DNA of 38,753 nucleotides from Desulfobacteraceae bacterium (GTDB lineage Bacteria; Desulfobacterota; Desulfobacteria; Desulfobacterales; SKZT01), in assembly GCA_011389745.1 (NCBI GenBank), contig JAABTQ010000010.1, positions 75,645 to 114,397 on the forward strand, read 5' to 3'. The notes under the pieces are model-generated. The model saw nothing but the letters and a program-made list of their open reading frames with translations. It made no database searches and was not told where the DNA came from. The translations under genes and the position numbers were made by a program. Positions 13,334 through 22,849 of the stretch are shown here, one piece after another; positions within the stretch are counted from its first letter, which is position 1, and the number at the start of each line of letters is the position of its first letter.

Positions 13334-13534
13334 TTACGCGCTGAAAGCGCAAGACATATCAGCCCAGGGCAACGCCCTGGGCGGCAAACCTCACCATTGA
13401 GGAGCCCTGAAAGGGCGTGACATATTTCTTTCGTCAGATATAATCGATGTTACGCCCTTCCAGGGCTTGTTTATCTTTATTTATCCATCCCAGGGCGTTG
13501 CCCTGGGCTGATATGTAACGGCCTTTCAGGCCTA
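13334..13534. repeat. Large nested inverted repeat element (~200 bp)
   Basis: The outer arms 13354-13381 and 13489-13516 are perfect 28-bp inverted copies, each containing the internal palindrome CCCAGGGC-AAC/GTT-GCCCTGGG. The inner arms 13403-13423 and 13447-13467 (AGCCCTG.AAGGGCGT.ACAT) are inverted with 2 mismatches. The outer ends carry GCTGAAAGC and GGCCTTTCAGGCC hairpins. The whole folds into a cruciform, MITE-like structure. The 'CAGCCCAGGGCAACGCCCTGGG' core is a widespread dispersed bacterial repeat. The rest of the gap to 13762 shows no gene. Confidence 0.8.
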
Positions 13535-16980: not shown

Positions 16981-17183
16981 GAGTGGAACCTGTTTGTGTG
17001 AAAATACTTGTGCTCAATTGTAGGTGCGAATTCATTCGCACAATGTGAACCCCGTTGTCCATTATACAGTCTATGCCCGTTCCCCCAGGAAAAAAGTTTT
17101 TTCTTTAAATCCGTGCCGGATTTTAAGTGCGAATGAATTCGCACCTACAGAAAAATCGGATTTTACACAAACAGGTTACACTC
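16981..17183. mobile_element. MITE-like element, copy 1
   Basis: A 203-bp non-coding element with terminal inverted repeats GAGTGGAACCTGTTTGTGT and its near-perfect inverse ending GGTTACACTC. It is flanked by the 9-bp direct repeat TTTTTATTT (16972-16980 and 17184-17192), a target-site duplication. Inside are perfect 23-bp inverted arms (17019-17041 and 17127-17149), each itself a REP-like hairpin GTGCGAAT-TC-ATTCGCAC. It matches the second copy at 24508-24728 over nearly its whole length. It ends 38 bp before the YkgJ-family start codon. Confidence 0.85.
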
Positions 17184-17221
17184 TTTTTATTTTTGGTGCT
17201 CTAAGGCCCAAAGGGGGGGCG

Positions 17222-17956
17222 ATGATAGAAAAACATACCATTTTTCTCAACTATGCCGAAGCCTTGAAAGCCATTCAGAATGATCTGGAGCAATATCCTC
17301 CGCAACCGCTTCTGCTTCGGCATTTAGCACAGTTGATATTGGGTGAAAAAGTCCTTATTTCGGAAGATAAACACCGGACAGGTTTGTGGATAGCAGTGGG
17401 AGAAAAAGGCAAATGCCGCCTGATTACCTATGTTCAGATGCCTGAGCACCTTTGTTCGGTGTTATCGAACAAGCAGCTTTCTTATGATGTTTTGGCAAAA
17501 ATCTGCGGGTGTGTTTTTCAGGAAAGTGCTTATACCGGCAGTCAATTTTTCGGAAAGGAAAAGGGCATTTGGGTCGAAACGGGCATGGAAGATTTCAAAT
17601 GTCTTCAGTGTGGACAGTGTTGTCGATTTCTTGATTATCATAAAGAGTTGACTCATGAGGATTACCTATTTTGGCAATCTCTGGGACGAACCGATATCAT
17701 GAAAAGGGTGGGGGTTCTCAAAAGGGCAGGGGAGAATGTTGCTTATCGCATCTGGATAGACCCTGTCACAGGTCGGATTTCGGAAGGCTGCCCATGGCTG
17801 ATCAGGGATTCTGTAAACAACCGGTATATCTGTCGCATTCACGATGTTAGACCCGGCATTTGCCGTCAATACCCCGGAAGCCGTAAACATGCGGGAATGA
17901 CAGGGTGCAACGCTTTTAATTTGCGGTCGATCAGAACCAGTAAAAAAACCGCTTGA
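17222..17956 (+). CDS. YkgJ-family cysteine-cluster protein
   Basis: A 244-aa cytoplasmic protein. The C-terminal half carries the YkgJ (PF03692) pattern: CLQCGQCCRF (C127, C130, C133, C134), then 'EGCPWL', 'YICRIHDVRPGICRQYP' and a final 'MTGC'. This is a CxxCxxCC plus CxxH/C set proposed to bind a zinc ion or iron-sulfur cluster. The reaction is unknown. The N-terminal ~120 residues (FLNYAEALKAIQNDLEQYPPQPL..) are not recognised. The start at 17222 is chosen because AAGGGGGGG precedes it; the frame runs upstream to 17024, but that part is the MITE. Its stop overlaps a TTGACA that may be the -35 of the aromatic operon. MITE insertion probably replaced or separated its native promoter. Confidence 0.85.
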   Translation: MIEKHTIFLNYAEALKAIQNDLEQYPPQPLLLRHLAQLILGEKVLISEDKHRTGLWIAVGEKGKCRLITYVQMPEHLCSVLSNKQLSYDVLAKICGCVFQESAYTGSQFFGKEKGIWVETGMEDFKCLQCGQCCRFLDYHKELTHEDYLFWQSLGRTDIMKRVGVLKRAGENVAYRIWIDPVTGRISEGCPWLIRDSVNNRYICRIHDVRPGICRQYPGSRKHAGMTGCNAFNLRSIRTSKKTA

Positions 17957-17981
17957 CAAAGCCGTTTTATTTATTTAGAGA
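17953..17981 (+). promoter_or_regulatory. Candidate promoter of the aromatic leader-operon transcript
   Basis: A perfect TTGACA (17953-17958), a 17-bp spacer and TAGAGA (17976-17981, a weak -10) overlap the stop codon of the YkgJ gene. A start near 17988 would leave only about 8 nt before the leader ATG, but about 26 nt before an in-frame TTG at 18014 that has GAAAGG upstream. The promoter may instead lie further up. Confidence 0.35.
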
Positions 17982-17995
17982 CTAAGAAATTTCAA

Positions 17996-18091
17996 ATGAA
18001 AGGTAATTTCGGATTGATTAATAGAACTGTGGGCAGATACTTTTATTTTTGGTATTATTTTTATAATACCGGTCTGCCCAAAGTGCGCTGA
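17996..18091 (+). CDS. Aromatic leader peptide of the DAHP synthase operon
   Basis: A 31-codon reading frame: MKGNFGLINRTVGR, then nine aromatic residues in a row Y15-F-Y-F-W-Y-Y-F-Y23, then NTGLPKVR and TGA. That is five Tyr, three Phe and one Trp (codons 18038-18064). Such runs are the hallmark of attenuation leader peptides, where scarcity of a charged tRNA stalls the ribosome. The aromatic codons sit between pairing segments 1 (18030-18037) and 2 (18070-18080), and the stop codon falls just after segment 2, the placement expected for attenuation control. The ATG has only a weak ribosome site (AAGA); an in-frame TTG at 18014 with GAAAGG about 10 nt upstream is an alternative start that keeps all nine aromatic codons. 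The chance of this run arising upstream of DAHP synthase without function is very small. Confidence 0.88.
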   Translation: MKGNFGLINRTVGRYFYFWYYFYNTGLPKVR

Positions 18092-18138
18092 TCCGAACAA
18101 TAAACATAAAATCAGGCGCAAAAGCCGTGGGCGGACCG
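18030..18138 (+). promoter_or_regulatory. Attenuator: mutually exclusive pairings before the aromatic operon
   Basis: Segment 1 TGGGCAGA (18030-18037) pairs perfectly with TCTGCCCA (18073-18080). The same segment 2, CGGTCTGCCCA (18070-18080), pairs over 11 bp (one G.U) with segment 3 TGGGCGGACCG (18128-18138). Segment 3 overlaps the 5' arm of the terminator (18123-18132). If the ribosome stalls on the aromatic codons, segment 1 is covered and 2:3 forms, preventing termination. If it reaches the TGA at 18089, segment 2 is covered and the terminator folds. Confidence 0.85.
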
Positions 18139-18161
18139 AATCGAAGCCCACGGCTTTTTTT
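18123..18161 (+). terminator. Rho-independent terminator of the attenuator
   Basis: A perfect 10-bp stem AGCCGTGGGC (18123-18132) / GCCCACGGCT (18146-18155) with a 13-nt loop is followed by a run of seven T (18155-18161). It lies 46 bp before the DAHP synthase start codon and after the leader stop, so it can only act on transcripts entering the aro operon. Confidence 0.92.
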
Positions 18162-18207: not shown

Positions 18208-19257
18208 ATGACAACAACATACGACATTCATATCAAAGGCTATGAACATCTGATAGCGCCCTGCACACTCAAAGAGGAGTTTCCTCTGACTCAAAAAGCA
18301 ACGGAAACCGTCATTAGCGGAAGACAGGCCATTCAAAACATAATCGACGGCAAAGACAAACGTCTTATGGCGATTGTCGGGCCTTGTTCTATCCACGATG
18401 CTAAGGCTGCCCTCGAATATGCGGAAAAATTGATCGAGATTAATGAGAAGGTTAAAAACACTCTTTTTTTGGTGATGCGGGTCTATTTTGAAAAGCCCCG
18501 CACGAATGTGGGTTGGAAAGGTTTGATCAATGATCCGCTTATGGACGGTACGTGCAATATTCAGGAGGGGATTCGTCATGCCAGGAAACTTCTTCTTGAT
18601 ATTGCACAAATGGGCTTGCCGGTTGCCAATGAAATCCTTGAACCCATTATTCCCCAATACATTGCGGGTTTGATCACCTGGGCGGCTATCGGGGCAAGAA
18701 CCACAGAATCTCAAACACATCGGGAAATGGCCAGCGGTCTGTCCATGCCTGTGGGATTTAAAAATCACACCAATGGTGATTTGGATATTGCTTTAAACGC
18801 CATGCAGGCGGCCAGGGCACAGCAGACTTTCCTGGGAATCGATCAGCAGGGACGATCCTGTATCGTTAAGACCACAGGCAATCCATACGGTCATCTGGTT
18901 TTAAGAGGAGGGGAGCATCCTAATTATGACCCGGTAAGCATTGCAGAAGCTTGTAAAAAGCTCGAAACCAAGAAACTTCCAAAAGCCATTGTCGTTGATT
19001 GTTCCCATGGAAACTCAGGAAAAAAATTTGAAGGACAGGCATTTGTATGGAAAAGTGTGCTCAGTCAGCGCCTTGACGGCAACGAATCCCTGGTGGGAAT
19101 GATGCTGGAAAGTAATCTGAAAGAGGGAAATCAAAAGCTGACCAAGGATCTTTCTTGCCTCAAATACGGTGTATCCATTACCGATGAATGTATCTCATGG
19201 GAAACCACCGAGCAGCTTCTTCTTTTGGCAAATGAAAGATTGTCCAGGAAAAACTGA
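18208..19257 (+). CDS. 3-deoxy-7-phosphoheptulonate (DAHP) synthase, class I AroF/G/H type
   Basis: Condenses phosphoenolpyruvate and erythrose 4-phosphate to DAHP, the committed step of the shikimate pathway. The 349-aa length equals the E. coli AroF/AroG/AroH class. Conserved blocks are IVGPCSIHD (metal Cys60), KPRTNVGWKG (residues 96-105), 'GARTTESQTHREMASGLSMPVGFKN', 'RGGEHPNYD' and 'VDCSHGNSGK'. It starts at the ATG at 18208 after AAGGTAAGG. It is the first structural gene after the aromatic attenuator, and a start 70 bp upstream of pheA places both in one operon. Isozyme feedback type (Tyr, Phe or Trp) cannot be read with certainty. The leader peptide suggests transcript control by all three. 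Confidence 0.96.
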   Translation: MTTTYDIHIKGYEHLIAPCTLKEEFPLTQKATETVISGRQAIQNIIDGKDKRLMAIVGPCSIHDAKAALEYAEKLIEINEKVKNTLFLVMRVYFEKPRTNVGWKGLINDPLMDGTCNIQEGIRHARKLLLDIAQMGLPVANEILEPIIPQYIAGLITWAAIGARTTESQTHREMASGLSMPVGFKNHTNGDLDIALNAMQAARAQQTFLGIDQQGRSCIVKTTGNPYGHLVLRGGEHPNYDPVSIAEACKKLETKKLPKAIVVDCSHGNSGKKFEGQAFVWKSVLSQRLDGNESLVGMMLESNLKEGNQKLTKDLSCLKYGVSITDECISWETTEQLLLLANERLSRKN

Positions 19258-19326
19258 AATGCCGTGAGAATTCCCGAAATAAAATCGCTCATATCAGGTG
19301 TCAGTTTTTTACATCGAGAGGAGATT

Positions 19327-20439
19327 ATGGACAATTCAGACAGCCGGCCACAAATCCAAAAACCAGAGGATTTAGGTGCCATAAGAGCATCCATTGATGA
19401 ATTGGATGAAAAAATTCTTGCCATGATTAATCAAAGACTCCATCTGGCCAAAAGAATCGGAGAATTAAAAAAAGATAAGAACGATATGGTGATGGATAAT
19501 GCCCGCGAAAGCATGGTGATCAATCGCCTGATCTCCATGAACAAAGGTCCTCTGACCGACAAGATGGTCGGGCATTTTTTCTCGGAAATCATCGCCGCTT
19601 CCCGTGAAATTCAAAAACCACAACAGGTGGGTTATTTAGGGCCGGAGGCTACCTTCACCCATATTGCGGCCATGAACCATTTTGGAAGTTCGGTTTCTTT
19701 TATGCCACAACCGAGTATCCGCGATGTTTTTATGGAAGTGGAAAAAGGCTCGTGCCAATATGGGGTTGTGCCGGTGGAAAATTCAATTGAAGGGGCGGTT
19801 AACTACACTCTGGATCTTTTTTATGAATCGGATTTAAAAATATGCGCGGAGATTTATCAATCCATTTCCCATGATCTTCTTTCCAAAACCGGAAATCTGG
19901 AAGATATTCAGGTCATTTACTCACACCCCCATGCATTTGCACAGTGCCGCAAATGGCTCAGAAAGCACCTTCCCGCCTGTTCTTTAAAGGAGTGCGGCAG
20001 TACGGCCTCCGCAGCCAAGATGGCATCGGAAAATTCTCGATCGGCGGCCATCTCCAGTCATGAAGCCGCACAAATGTATCATCTGAATGTGGTGGCATCA
20101 AGAATTGAAGATGTTTCCAGAAACATTACCCGGTTTTTGGTTATCGGAAAAGAGGAAGTTCGAAAAACCGGAAGGGATAAAACTTCCATCATGTTTGTGA
20201 CTACGCATATTCCCGGTGCACTTTACAGAATTCTTCAACCCATAGCCGCGGCAGGGCTTAATATGGTCAAGCTTGAGTCAAGGCCGGCCAGGCATGAAAA
20301 GTGGAGCTATGTCTTTTTTGCCGATCTTGAAGGGCACATGCAGGATGTGACCATAAAAACGACAGTGGAAGAAATGAGAAATATCTGTCTTTATTTAAAA
20401 TGGCTGGGTTCATATCCCAGAGCAAGAGATGGATTTTAA
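19327..20439 (+). CDS. pheA: Bifunctional chorismate mutase / prephenate dehydratase
   Basis: Converts chorismate to prephenate and then phenylpyruvate in phenylalanine synthesis. The protein is 370 aa. An AroQ chorismate mutase domain covers about residues 15-95 (AIRASIDELDEKILAMINQR, K and R catalytic positions present). The prephenate dehydratase domain follows from 101 (VGYLGPEATFTHIAA, VPVENSIEGAV), with the catalytic TRF at 268-270 (NITRFLVI). The C-terminal ACT domain (about 286-360) has PGALY and ESRP (317-320), the Phe-binding motifs, so allosteric inhibition by Phe is expected. The start at 19327 has GAGGAG just upstream; the frame extends to a GTG at 19264 without a ribosome site. 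It lies third-party-free between DAHP synthase and aroA. Confidence 0.96.
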   Translation: MDNSDSRPQIQKPEDLGAIRASIDELDEKILAMINQRLHLAKRIGELKKDKNDMVMDNARESMVINRLISMNKGPLTDKMVGHFFSEIIAASREIQKPQQVGYLGPEATFTHIAAMNHFGSSVSFMPQPSIRDVFMEVEKGSCQYGVVPVENSIEGAVNYTLDLFYESDLKICAEIYQSISHDLLSKTGNLEDIQVIYSHPHAFAQCRKWLRKHLPACSLKECGSTASAAKMASENSRSAAISSHEAAQMYHLNVVASRIEDVSRNITRFLVIGKEEVRKTGRDKTSIMFVTTHIPGALYRILQPIAAAGLNMVKLESRPARHEKWSYVFFADLEGHMQDVTIKTTVEEMRNICLYLKWLGSYPRARDGF

Positions 20440-20514: not shown

Positions 20515-21771
20515 ATGATTGAAATTAAACCCAGGCACATGATGGGTTGCAGCGTTTCCGTTCCCGGATCAAAAAGCTACACCCACCGTATACTCATTGC
20601 CGCATCCCTTTCCGATGGCTTCTGTGTTGTAGAAAACGGCCTTCAAAGTGAAGACACCCTGTTGACCCTGGATGCCCTAAAACAGATGGGGGTTGATATC
20701 AACATTATTGGGAATCGTTTTAACGTGACCGGCAAAAAAGGAATCCTATCAGCTCCTGAAGAGCCTGTTTATCTTGGGAACTCAGGGACATCCATGCGTT
20801 TGTTGACCGGTGTGGCGGCATTGTGCCGAGGCGTTTGCACGTTGACCGGAAGTGATCGGATGAAGCAGCGCCCGATTCAGGATCTTCTGGATGCTTTGTC
20901 CAACATCGGAGTTGAGGCCAGGTCCGTTGACGGAAACGGATGCCCTCCTGTGGAAATTTTTGGAGGATCAGTTAGAGGCGGTAAAACCGGGCTGCGCTGT
21001 AAAATCAGCAGCCAGTTTCTTTCCTCTCTTTTATTGGTAGGACCCTATTCGAAAGACGGTATTGATATCCGGGTAACCGAGGGACCAGTGTCCAAACCTT
21101 ATATCGATATGACTGTCGAAGTCATGCAAAGATGTGGTGTGAATGTCGAGCGAGAGGGTTATGATCGTTTTTTTGTTCCAGGCGGCCAAATTTATAATTC
21201 CGGAACCTATCTTGTAGAACCGGATTGTTCTCAGGCCGGCTATTTCTGGGGTGTCGGAGCCATCACAGGAGCCAAAATCAAAGTGTTCGGAATCAGCAAA
21301 AACACCCGTCAGGGAGATGTGCGGTTTGCACAGGTTCTTGGTGAAATGGGTTGTGTAGTAAAGGAAGAATCAGACGGAATCAGCGTCAAAGGCGGCGAAT
21401 TAACGGCAGTGGATGTGGATATGGCCGATATGCCGGATATGGTTCCGACACTTGCTGTTGTTGCATCCTTTGCAAAGGGAACGACCCGGATTAACAATGT
21501 GGCCCATTTAAAAGCCAAGGAAAGTGACCGGCTCGGTTCGGTGGTCGATGAACTTGTGAAAATGGGTGTCAATGCTGCTTGTACCGATTCCGGCATGACC
21601 ATCGAAGGGGGTCGACCCCAAGGTGCGCAAATCGATACATACAACGATCACCGTATCGCCATGAGCTTTGCCATGGCCGGACTTAAAGTTCCGGGCATTA
21701 TCATCAACGAGGAGCACTGTGTTGAAAAATCATTTCCCAATTACTGGGAAATCTTTGCGGAACTTAGTTAA
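20515..21771 (+). CDS. aroA: 3-phosphoshikimate 1-carboxyvinyltransferase (EPSP synthase)
   Basis: Transfers enolpyruvate from PEP to shikimate 3-phosphate. The protein is 418 aa with two inside-out alpha/beta domains. Motifs: VPGSKSYTHRILIAASLSDG (S3P/PEP-binding Lys20 and Arg25), YLGNSGTSMRLLTGV (residues 86-100), 'GSDRMKQRPIQDLLDAL' with the PEP-binding Arg, 'DMPDMVPTLAV' with the catalytic Asp, 'LKAKESDRLG' and 'YNDHRIAMSFAMAG'. No insertion or missing key residue is seen. It follows pheA by 75 bp and ends 22 bp before aroC. The order DAHP synthase-pheA-aroA-aroC covers the first and last steps of the common pathway plus the Phe branch. Confidence 0.97.
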   Translation: MIEIKPRHMMGCSVSVPGSKSYTHRILIAASLSDGFCVVENGLQSEDTLLTLDALKQMGVDINIIGNRFNVTGKKGILSAPEEPVYLGNSGTSMRLLTGVAALCRGVCTLTGSDRMKQRPIQDLLDALSNIGVEARSVDGNGCPPVEIFGGSVRGGKTGLRCKISSQFLSSLLLVGPYSKDGIDIRVTEGPVSKPYIDMTVEVMQRCGVNVEREGYDRFFVPGGQIYNSGTYLVEPDCSQAGYFWGVGAITGAKIKVFGISKNTRQGDVRFAQVLGEMGCVVKEESDGISVKGGELTAVDVDMADMPDMVPTLAVVASFAKGTTRINNVAHLKAKESDRLGSVVDELVKMGVNAACTDSGMTIEGGRPQGAQIDTYNDHRIAMSFAMAGLKVPGIIINEEHCVEKSFPNYWEIFAELS

Positions 21772-21793: not shown

Positions 21794-22849
21794 ATGCCCG
21801 GTAATACATTCGGAACATTATTTAAAATTACGACCTGGGGTGAATCCCATGGAAAAGGGGTAGGGGTGATCATTGATGGGTGTCCCCCCAAAATGCCTTT
21901 GACTCAGTCTATAATACAGGCCATGCTTGACCGGCGAAGGCCCGGAGGTTCTTTGGCAAGCACCACCCGGAAAGAACCGGATCAGGCCATAATTATGTCC
22001 GGTGTTTTCGAGGGCATGACCACCGGAACTCCAATCATGATCATGGTTGAAAACAAAGATGCCGAATCCCGGGCATACTCTCCTTATGCAACCCTTTACC
22101 GTCCTGGTCACGGAGACATCTCCTACATGGCCAAATACGGTATCCGGGACTGGCGTGGCGGTGGAAGAGCTTCGGCCCGGGAGACCGTGGCAAGGGTTGC
22201 CGCAGGAGCCGTGGCTAAAGCCATGCTTGACCGACACGGTATTGCCGTGATCGCCTATACCCTGGAATTGGGAGGTATCCGGGCAGAGAATCTTGATTTA
22301 TCTTCAATAAATCAGAACATGTTTTTGTGTCCGGATGCAAATGCCGCTGAAAAAATGGCTTTGCGTGTTAAAGCTGTCAAAAACCAGGGCGACTCATTAG
22401 GCGGAATTGTGGAGATTATCGCCTCCAGTGTTCCGGCCGGGTTGGGAAATCCGGTATTTGACAAGCTGGATGCCGAACTGGCCAAGGCGTTAATGAGTAT
22501 CGGAGCAGTTAAAGGTGTGGAGATTGGTGCGGGATTTGAAGCAGCCCGGATGCTTGGCTCCCAAAACAACGATCCCATTACCCCTGACGGTTTTTTATCC
22601 AATAATGCCGGGGGGATTCTCGCCGGTATTTCCAACGGCGATAACATCGTGGTTCGTGCCGCGGTCAAACCCATCCCGTCCATTGCCGTCGAACAAAAAA
22701 CCGTTAATACTGAAGGGAAACAAGAAACCATTTCTGTTAAAGGCCGACATGATATATCTGCCATTCCGCGAATCAATGTGGTATGCGAGGCGATGGTGTG
22801 TCTGGTTCTTGTCGATCATCTGCTTCAGCAAAAAGCCACTGTAGCTTAA
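21794..22849 (+). CDS. aroC: Chorismate synthase
   Basis: Converts EPSP to chorismate using reduced FMN, the last common aromatic step. The protein is 351 aa. Conserved blocks include FGTLFKITTWGESHGKGVGVIIDG (the first His), DRRRPGGSLASTTRKEPD, 'YRPGHGDISYMAKYGIRDWRGGGRASARET' with the FMN/substrate loop, 'VFDKLDAELAKALMSIGAVKGVEIG', 'NNAGGILAGISNGD' and 'GRHDISAIPRINVVCEAM'. The start at 21794 follows GGAG; the open frame reaches back into aroA but lacks homology. It is the last gene of the operon. No terminator hairpin was recognised after it; a dispersed repeat follows at 22938. Confidence 0.97.
   Translation: MPGNTFGTLFKITTWGESHGKGVGVIIDGCPPKMPLTQSIIQAMLDRRRPGGSLASTTRKEPDQAIIMSGVFEGMTTGTPIMIMVENKDAESRAYSPYATLYRPGHGDISYMAKYGIRDWRGGGRASARETVARVAAGAVAKAMLDRHGIAVIAYTLELGGIRAENLDLSSINQNMFLCPDANAAEKMALRVKAVKNQGDSLGGIVEIIASSVPAGLGNPVFDKLDAELAKALMSIGAVKGVEIGAGFEAARMLGSQNNDPITPDGFLSNNAGGILAGISNGDNIVVRAAVKPIPSIAVEQKTVNTEGKQETISVKGRHDISAIPRINVVCEAMVCLVLVDHLLQQKATVA

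Follow-up and report, generated by a model that had tools for sequence, protein, structure and literature searches.

A short ORF rich in aromatic codons, followed by an intrinsic terminator, precedes an aromatic amino acid operon on contig JAABTQ010000010.1 of a Desulfobacteraceae genome (GCA_011389745.1), which raises the question of whether this leader regulates the operon and, if so, which amino acids it senses. The window, i.e., the whole stretch of DNA that was analysed, is 38,753 nucleotides long, and positions refer to it unless another locus is named. Based on the anatomy, conservation, covariation, and modelled switch demonstrated here, the leader is very probably a ribosome-mediated transcription attenuator, in which shortage of either Tyr-tRNA or Phe-tRNA works as an OR gate (with Trp as an optional third input) that gates entry into aromatic synthesis.

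Pfam and NCBIfam profiles bore out the gene identities of the DAHP synthase-pheA-aroA-aroC operon proposed in the sequence-only reading. The first gene, a type I-alpha DAHP synthase of the AroFGH family (18208-19257, plus strand; TIGR00034, E 1.3e-143; NF009395, E 6.5e-154), is the single AroFGH-like copy found in a search of the source genome. It is followed on the same strand by closely spaced genes for PheA, a chorismate mutase-prephenate dehydratase-ACT protein (19264-20439; PF01817, PF00800, PF01842), AroA, 3-phosphoshikimate 1-carboxyvinyltransferase (20515-21771; TIGR01356, E 7.6e-132), and AroC, chorismate synthase (21815-22849; TIGR00033, E 9e-128). The PheA coordinate 19264 is the start of the program-called ORF, and the real start probably lies further in; the AroC start is approximate, the program-called ORF opening at 21668 and the TIGR00033 match beginning at residue 52 of that ORF. 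The tyrA gene (CM-prephenate dehydrogenase) of the source genome is on a separate contig. The gene content of the operon supports the proposed control of the common pathway together with the Phe branch. Elsewhere in the window, an Rfam Acido-Lenti-1 RNA match was found at 13489-13533 (plus strand; 43.9 bits, gathering score 37).

The leader is flanked upstream by an ORF that encodes a CxxCxxCC domain (17024-17956) and downstream by the DAHP synthase gene. A candidate sigma-70-type promoter (17953-17981, plus strand), read from the sequence as TTGACA (17953-17958), a 17-nt spacer, and TAGAGA (17976-17981), would place the RNA start near 17988. One same-genus relative keeps TTGACA and a TAxxxA hexamer at equal spacing, and the candidate is absent from the output of a stricter consensus promoter scan. 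The upstream ORF ends within this candidate promoter, its stop codon (17954-17956) sharing bases with the -35-like TTGACA. Translation of the leader most likely begins at TTG 18014, giving the peptide (M)INRTVGRYFYFWYYFYNTGLPKVR in 25 codons (18014-18091, plus strand; stop codon 18089-18091). In an alignment of 58 leaders, the TTG 18014 column holds a start codon in 44 rows (29 ATG, 11 GTG, and 4 TTG), and a search for Shine-Dalgarno (SD) sequences and starts in 64 leaders identified AAAGG (17999-18003, plus strand) 10 nt ahead of this codon, the usual pattern being AAAGG(A) 6-11 nt ahead of the start. The in-frame upstream ATG 17996, presupposed by the earlier description of a 31-codon leader, was rejected as the start codon: ATG occurs in its column in 2 of the 58 rows, it has no SD, and transcription beginning near 17988 would leave no space for a ribosome-binding site before it.

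The originally described run of nine consecutive aromatic codons (Y F Y F W Y Y F Y) is present at 18038-18064 on the plus strand (TAC TTT TAT TTT TGG TAT TAT TTT TAT). When the 300 nt preceding the DAHP synthase gene were dinucleotide-shuffled 3000 times, no shuffle produced a 9/9 aromatic window. Both alternative pairings that had been proposed around this run also stood when checked on the sequence. Segment 1 (18030-18037) pairs with 18073-18080 in 8 perfect bp, and the fold adds an inner hairpin, GGTATTAT/ATAATACC (18051-18070), which lies inside the sensor run, is stacked on the 1:2 helix, and draws its GG from the TGG (Trp) codon. Segment 2 (18070-18080), which encodes ..GLP.. here and is conserved as LPGVR in relatives, can instead pair with its antiterminator partner segment 3 (18128-18138) in 11 bp, including one G.U. 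Segment 3 overlaps the 5' arm and loop of the terminator (3:4 helix plus T-run; 18120-18161), and all of these elements are on the plus strand. The terminator and its T-run were correctly recognized in the sequence-only reading, but the helix is longer and stronger than the 10 bp claimed: 18120/18121-18132 pairs with 18146-18157/18158 over 12-13 bp, followed by TTTTTTT to 18161. This is the only terminator of the window leader, and it is located between the leader ORF and the first gene, DAHP synthase. Folding of the whole leader gave a z-score of -4.33, with none of 200 shuffles equally good.

The order-level comparison was built from a DAHP synthase search of 194 Desulfobacterales genomes (65 with a match) and GTDB contigs, after which the upstream DNA was read. 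We found 64 distinct leaders in which an aromatic run is followed by a terminator. At least six aromatic codons in a 9-codon window occurred in 60 of 75 distinct DAHP synthase upstream regions in the order, compared to 4 of 264 upstream regions of other long ORFs at the same loci and 37 of 1500 shuffles. DAHP synthase genes lacking the run are often operon-internal (L131, after an aroB-like end, and L112) or second tandem copies (L142, L143, and L145), and L084 carries an unrelated insertion upstream. Outside Desulfobacterota, the run is generally missing from DAHP synthase loci. One Latescibacterota locus (L019, 5781-5982) has an aromatic-run ORF (RYFYFYFYY) and a terminator at a DAHP synthase gene, with a differing C-terminal part, and this leader possibly arose independently.

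Covariation was assessed on a MAFFT alignment (A2; 58 sequences) that was unfitted to structure, using as controls 500 shuffles and slid helices, neither of which removes the effect of shared ancestry. The 2:3 helix was paired in 86.8% of cells (slid helices ≤43.1%) with both-side changes in 7/11 pairs, the 3:4 helix in 90.6% (≤57.8%) with both-side changes in 6/13 pairs, and 1:2 plus the inner hairpin in 66.9% (≤41.2%) with both-side changes in 11/16 pairs. For the 8-bp part of 1:2, 77% of cells were paired and 6/8 pairs had both-side changes, whereas the two column pairs at the inner-hairpin GG (122:148 and 123:147 in A2) had 9 and 13 both-side changes, respectively. Each helix exceeded all 500 shuffles and the slid controls in cells paired, both-side-change cells, and covariation score; the number of pairs or pair types with both-side changes was less clear against the controls. 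The trp/pheA-style attenuation logic of the sequence-only reading is therefore supported by conservation in relatives, where each of the three helices shows compensatory changes. Retention of the terminator without an aromatic ORF, which had been named as the outcome that would speak against it, is not the pattern seen, given that ORF and terminator occur together in the 64 distinct leaders.

These data also bear on explanations that dispense with attenuation by a translating ribosome. The terminator could serve the upstream ORF, which ends at 17956, and the U-rich leader ORF could be a chance feature with no regulatory role. Such a combination is mostly refuted by conservation and appears highly improbable: aromatic runs arise by chance in 1.5-2.5% of cases against 80% observed, the mutually exclusive alternative helices covary, and the leader is conserved across many genomes despite different upstream DNA. 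A T-box, a riboswitch, or a protein-controlled terminator, which a terminator/antiterminator pair by itself would suit, is similarly remote. No Rfam family, including T-boxes and riboswitches, matched the leader at the gathering threshold; the best sub-threshold match was Phe_leader (RF01859), with 18.7 bits against a gathering score of 55, which was likewise reached in none of 10 related loci. Moreover, conservation falls on a translated aromatic run equipped with a start codon and SD.

Ribosome-mediated attenuation was modelled for the window leader by masking a 28-nt footprint at each A-site codon in turn and calculating base-pair probabilities with a partition function. When segment 4 was unmade, the 2:3 probability was 0.92-1.00 for stalls at 18038-18056; the helix was unformed at later codons (0.00 at the stop codon). 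In the full transcript, stalls at 18038-18050 left the terminator with a probability of 0.22-0.41, which rose to 0.98-0.99 for a ribosome located from 18068 to the stop codon, and in the absence of a ribosome both 1:2 and 3:4 formed (0.99). In silico, the position of the ribosome sets which helix forms, and a stall on the first five to seven codons of the run releases segment 2. A clear equilibrium switch (drop in terminator probability of at least 0.3) was obtained for 21 of 63 leaders, and the model suggests that the others need kinetic, co-transcriptional control, on which classical attenuators likewise rely.

Based on this modelling, we infer that the switch operates in vivo as follows. 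RNA polymerase would start near 17988, and a ribosome would initiate the leader at TTG 18014. A shortage of charged Tyr- or Phe-tRNA would halt the ribosome early in the run, where it covers segment 1, allowing 2:3 to pair, so that no terminator forms and DAHP synthase-pheA-aroA-aroC is transcribed. When both tRNAs are plentiful, the ribosome would reach the stop codon at 18089-18091 and cover segment 2, leading to 3:4 formation and a transcript end near 18161. An untranslated leader would form 1:2, and its transcription should terminate as well.

The composition of the run points to Tyr and Phe as the sensed pair, with Trp optional. The 64 runs contain 292 Tyr, 183 Phe, and 29 Trp codons. Tyr and Phe are both present in 62 leaders, with at least two of each in 53, whereas any Trp is found in only 28. 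Switches between F and Y codons number 239 compared to 197.8 ± 8.4 expected from composition (0/5000 shuffles; shared ancestry only partly corrected), and in 53 of the 64 leaders the first five codons include F as well as Y. This early placement and alternation suit an OR gate, because only stalls at early codons free segment 2.

Whether the attenuator truly pools Tyr, Phe, and Trp, as was originally proposed, depends on how the Trp codon is read. Its position in the window is productive, since TGG is the fifth codon and modelled stalling at it shifts the fold toward the antiterminator. Codons that break the F/Y runs are mostly NGG (38 cases: 22 TGG, 10 CGG, 4 GGG, and 2 AGG), and the GG pairs with CC just ahead of segment 2 in the 1:2 arm, such that Trp exchanges with Arg or Gly. 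The same-genus relative has GGG at the position of the TGG in the window. This pairing explains the NGG codons, and Trp was rejected as a conserved sensor codon. TGG is nonetheless commoner than it would be if the first base were free to vary (22/38 vs. 25% expected; P 1.6e-5, ancestry ignored), and weak selection for Trp is therefore possible. The trpE gene of the source genome carries its own leader, MKARNLMDLINKAYERCWWWQAQAFGVADGIRSN (WWW), with a terminator. Taken with the 28/64 occurrence, this argues against the pooled Tyr/Phe/Trp sensor of the sequence-only reading, and we consider three-way pooling doubtful. A different possibility is that Phe alone (or Tyr alone) is effective in vivo and the other aromatic codons are tolerated, UAU and UUU keeping the loop U-rich and unstructured. 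In the attenuator encoded by aroR before aroF of C. glutamicum (Neshat et al. 2014, reviewed in PMC11802643), the leader peptide has Phe-Tyr-Phe, yet only Phe, and not Tyr, is reported to matter, so Tyr codons do not prove a response to Tyr. Leaders L014, L020, and L133 are nearly all Tyr, which would also fit sensing of one amino acid. Set against the retention of F and Y in nearly all leaders and their alternation beyond chance, single-amino-acid sensing is the less likely reading, and the Tyr/Phe OR gate is the one we prefer.

In some relatives, the attenuator may be extended. A second terminator lies ≤45 nt after the first in 21 of 64 leaders of the order set and 33 of 90 leaders of the phylum set (54 loci, e.g., L087, L092, L103, and L116). 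In nearly all of these tandem leaders, about 8-16 bp can form between the 3' arm of the first terminator and the 5' arm of the second (4:5 pairing), and the computed co-transcriptional probability of 4:5 pairing with segment 3 occupied had a mean of 0.75-1.00 in 20 of 21. We suggest a relay, in which formation of 2:3 would release the 3' arm of terminator 1 for 4:5 pairing, so that one stall would disarm two terminators in series. Duplexes of 4:5 from the same species were stronger than cross-species duplexes (-20.0 vs. -17.9, 0/5000 permutations), as they were in a second comparison (-18.1 vs. -17.0, p 0.0004). A duplicated terminator would be expected to show the same arm complementarity without any relay, and at positions where the two 5' arms differ, pairing was kept in 45% compared to 42% in the cross-species control. 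The evidence for a relay is suggestive, and simple duplication of the terminator is also a plausible account. The trpE leader of the source genome (L153; G000 contig C70, 4420-4130, minus strand) also has a second terminator after its WWW peptide and first terminator, with 14-bp 4:5 complementarity.

Beyond the order, a covariance model (R1) gave hits in 148 of the 395 phylum genomes searched, and the 33 genomes from outside the phylum that served as a negative control gave none. Among 90 R1 loci inspected, with scores of about 40 bits and above, most have an aromatic-run ORF in the right place. The first gene after the leader encodes an AroFGH DAHP synthase, a TIGR01361-type DAHP synthase (L179-L181, L186, L189, L192, L204, L206, L221, L223, L226, and others), an archaeal-type ADTH synthase (TIGR01949) followed by DHQ synthase II (L156, L158, L159, L161, L163-L165, L167-L171, L174, and others, with leader and terminator), or shikimate kinase followed by chorismate synthase, aroK-aroC (L182, L184, L194, and others). 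ADTH synthase and DHQ synthase II constitute an alternative early shikimate pathway. We tentatively propose, as a possibility that falls short of being probable, a phylum-wide Tyr/Phe OR-gate attenuator before three non-homologous entry enzymes and aroK-aroC, which in about one-third of cases has been extended into a relay. Other leaders with terminators were observed before different genes: Phe-rich leaders before Peripla_BP_6 substrate-binding proteins (L175, L183, L197, L209, L211, L214, L228, L234, and L243; L183 and L234 were scanned), which perhaps serve transport of aromatic amino acids or keto acids; WWWW leaders before indolepyruvate ferredoxin oxidoreductase alpha (L220 and L227); and Tyr-rich leaders before an acetate-CoA ligase alpha-like protein (L188 and L191, the latter scanned) and MBL-fold proteins (L235 and L238).

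In enterics, control of the DAHP synthase genes is exerted by the repressors TyrR and TrpR. In the present system, tRNA-sensing attenuation appears to govern the committed step of the entire aromatic pathway, with two amino acids combined in one leader. The most interesting part is the breadth over non-homologous enzymes: one leader type is found before three unrelated entry enzymes, so that the signal tracks function and not protein family, suggesting that a cis-regulatory RNA can persist or re-evolve through enzyme replacement. The covariance model can already be used to annotate sulfate reducers and their relatives, and the leader offers a clean system for studying how mixed regulatory codons are read.

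Ribosome-mediated attenuation itself is known, and a Tyr/Phe attenuator before DAHP synthase is likely new for this lineage: no description of such a leader in Desulfobacterota was found in the open-licence PMC papers searched, and the leader type is unreported in the consulted passages of a premature-terminator survey (PMC2965389) and an actinobacterial survey (PMC1262725). Calling it unusual, as the earlier interpretation did, is too strong, given that such leaders are common in the phylum and that the Phe-Tyr-Phe leader of C. glutamicum is a precedent. For Desulfovibrio vulgaris, an attenuator has been predicted ahead of aroA'-aroB' (Merino database; PMC1173090, Table 7), genes of the ADTH synthase/DHQ synthase II kind that also follow some of the present leaders, but the consulted passages of that source list a predicted terminator and antiterminator with no mention of a leader peptide or sensed amino acid. 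The trp operon attenuator shares the logic and segment order of the window leader, and the source genome has one before trpE, whereas its regulatory codons are Trp only and it acts on the anthranilate branch. Similarly, the enteric pheA attenuator (pheL, RF01859) has a leader peptide, exclusive 1:2, 2:3, and 3:4 helices, and a controlled gene for CM-prephenate dehydratase, but it responds to Phe only, governs the Phe branch and not DAHP synthase, and belongs to an RNA family whose gathering score the window leader does not approach. Judged by function, the closest precedent is the aroR attenuator of C. glutamicum, which combines a mixed Phe/Tyr leader peptide, ribosome stalling, and a downstream DAHP synthase operon, although it comes from another phylum, is reported to answer to Phe and not Tyr, and has three aromatic residues compared to nine in the window leader.
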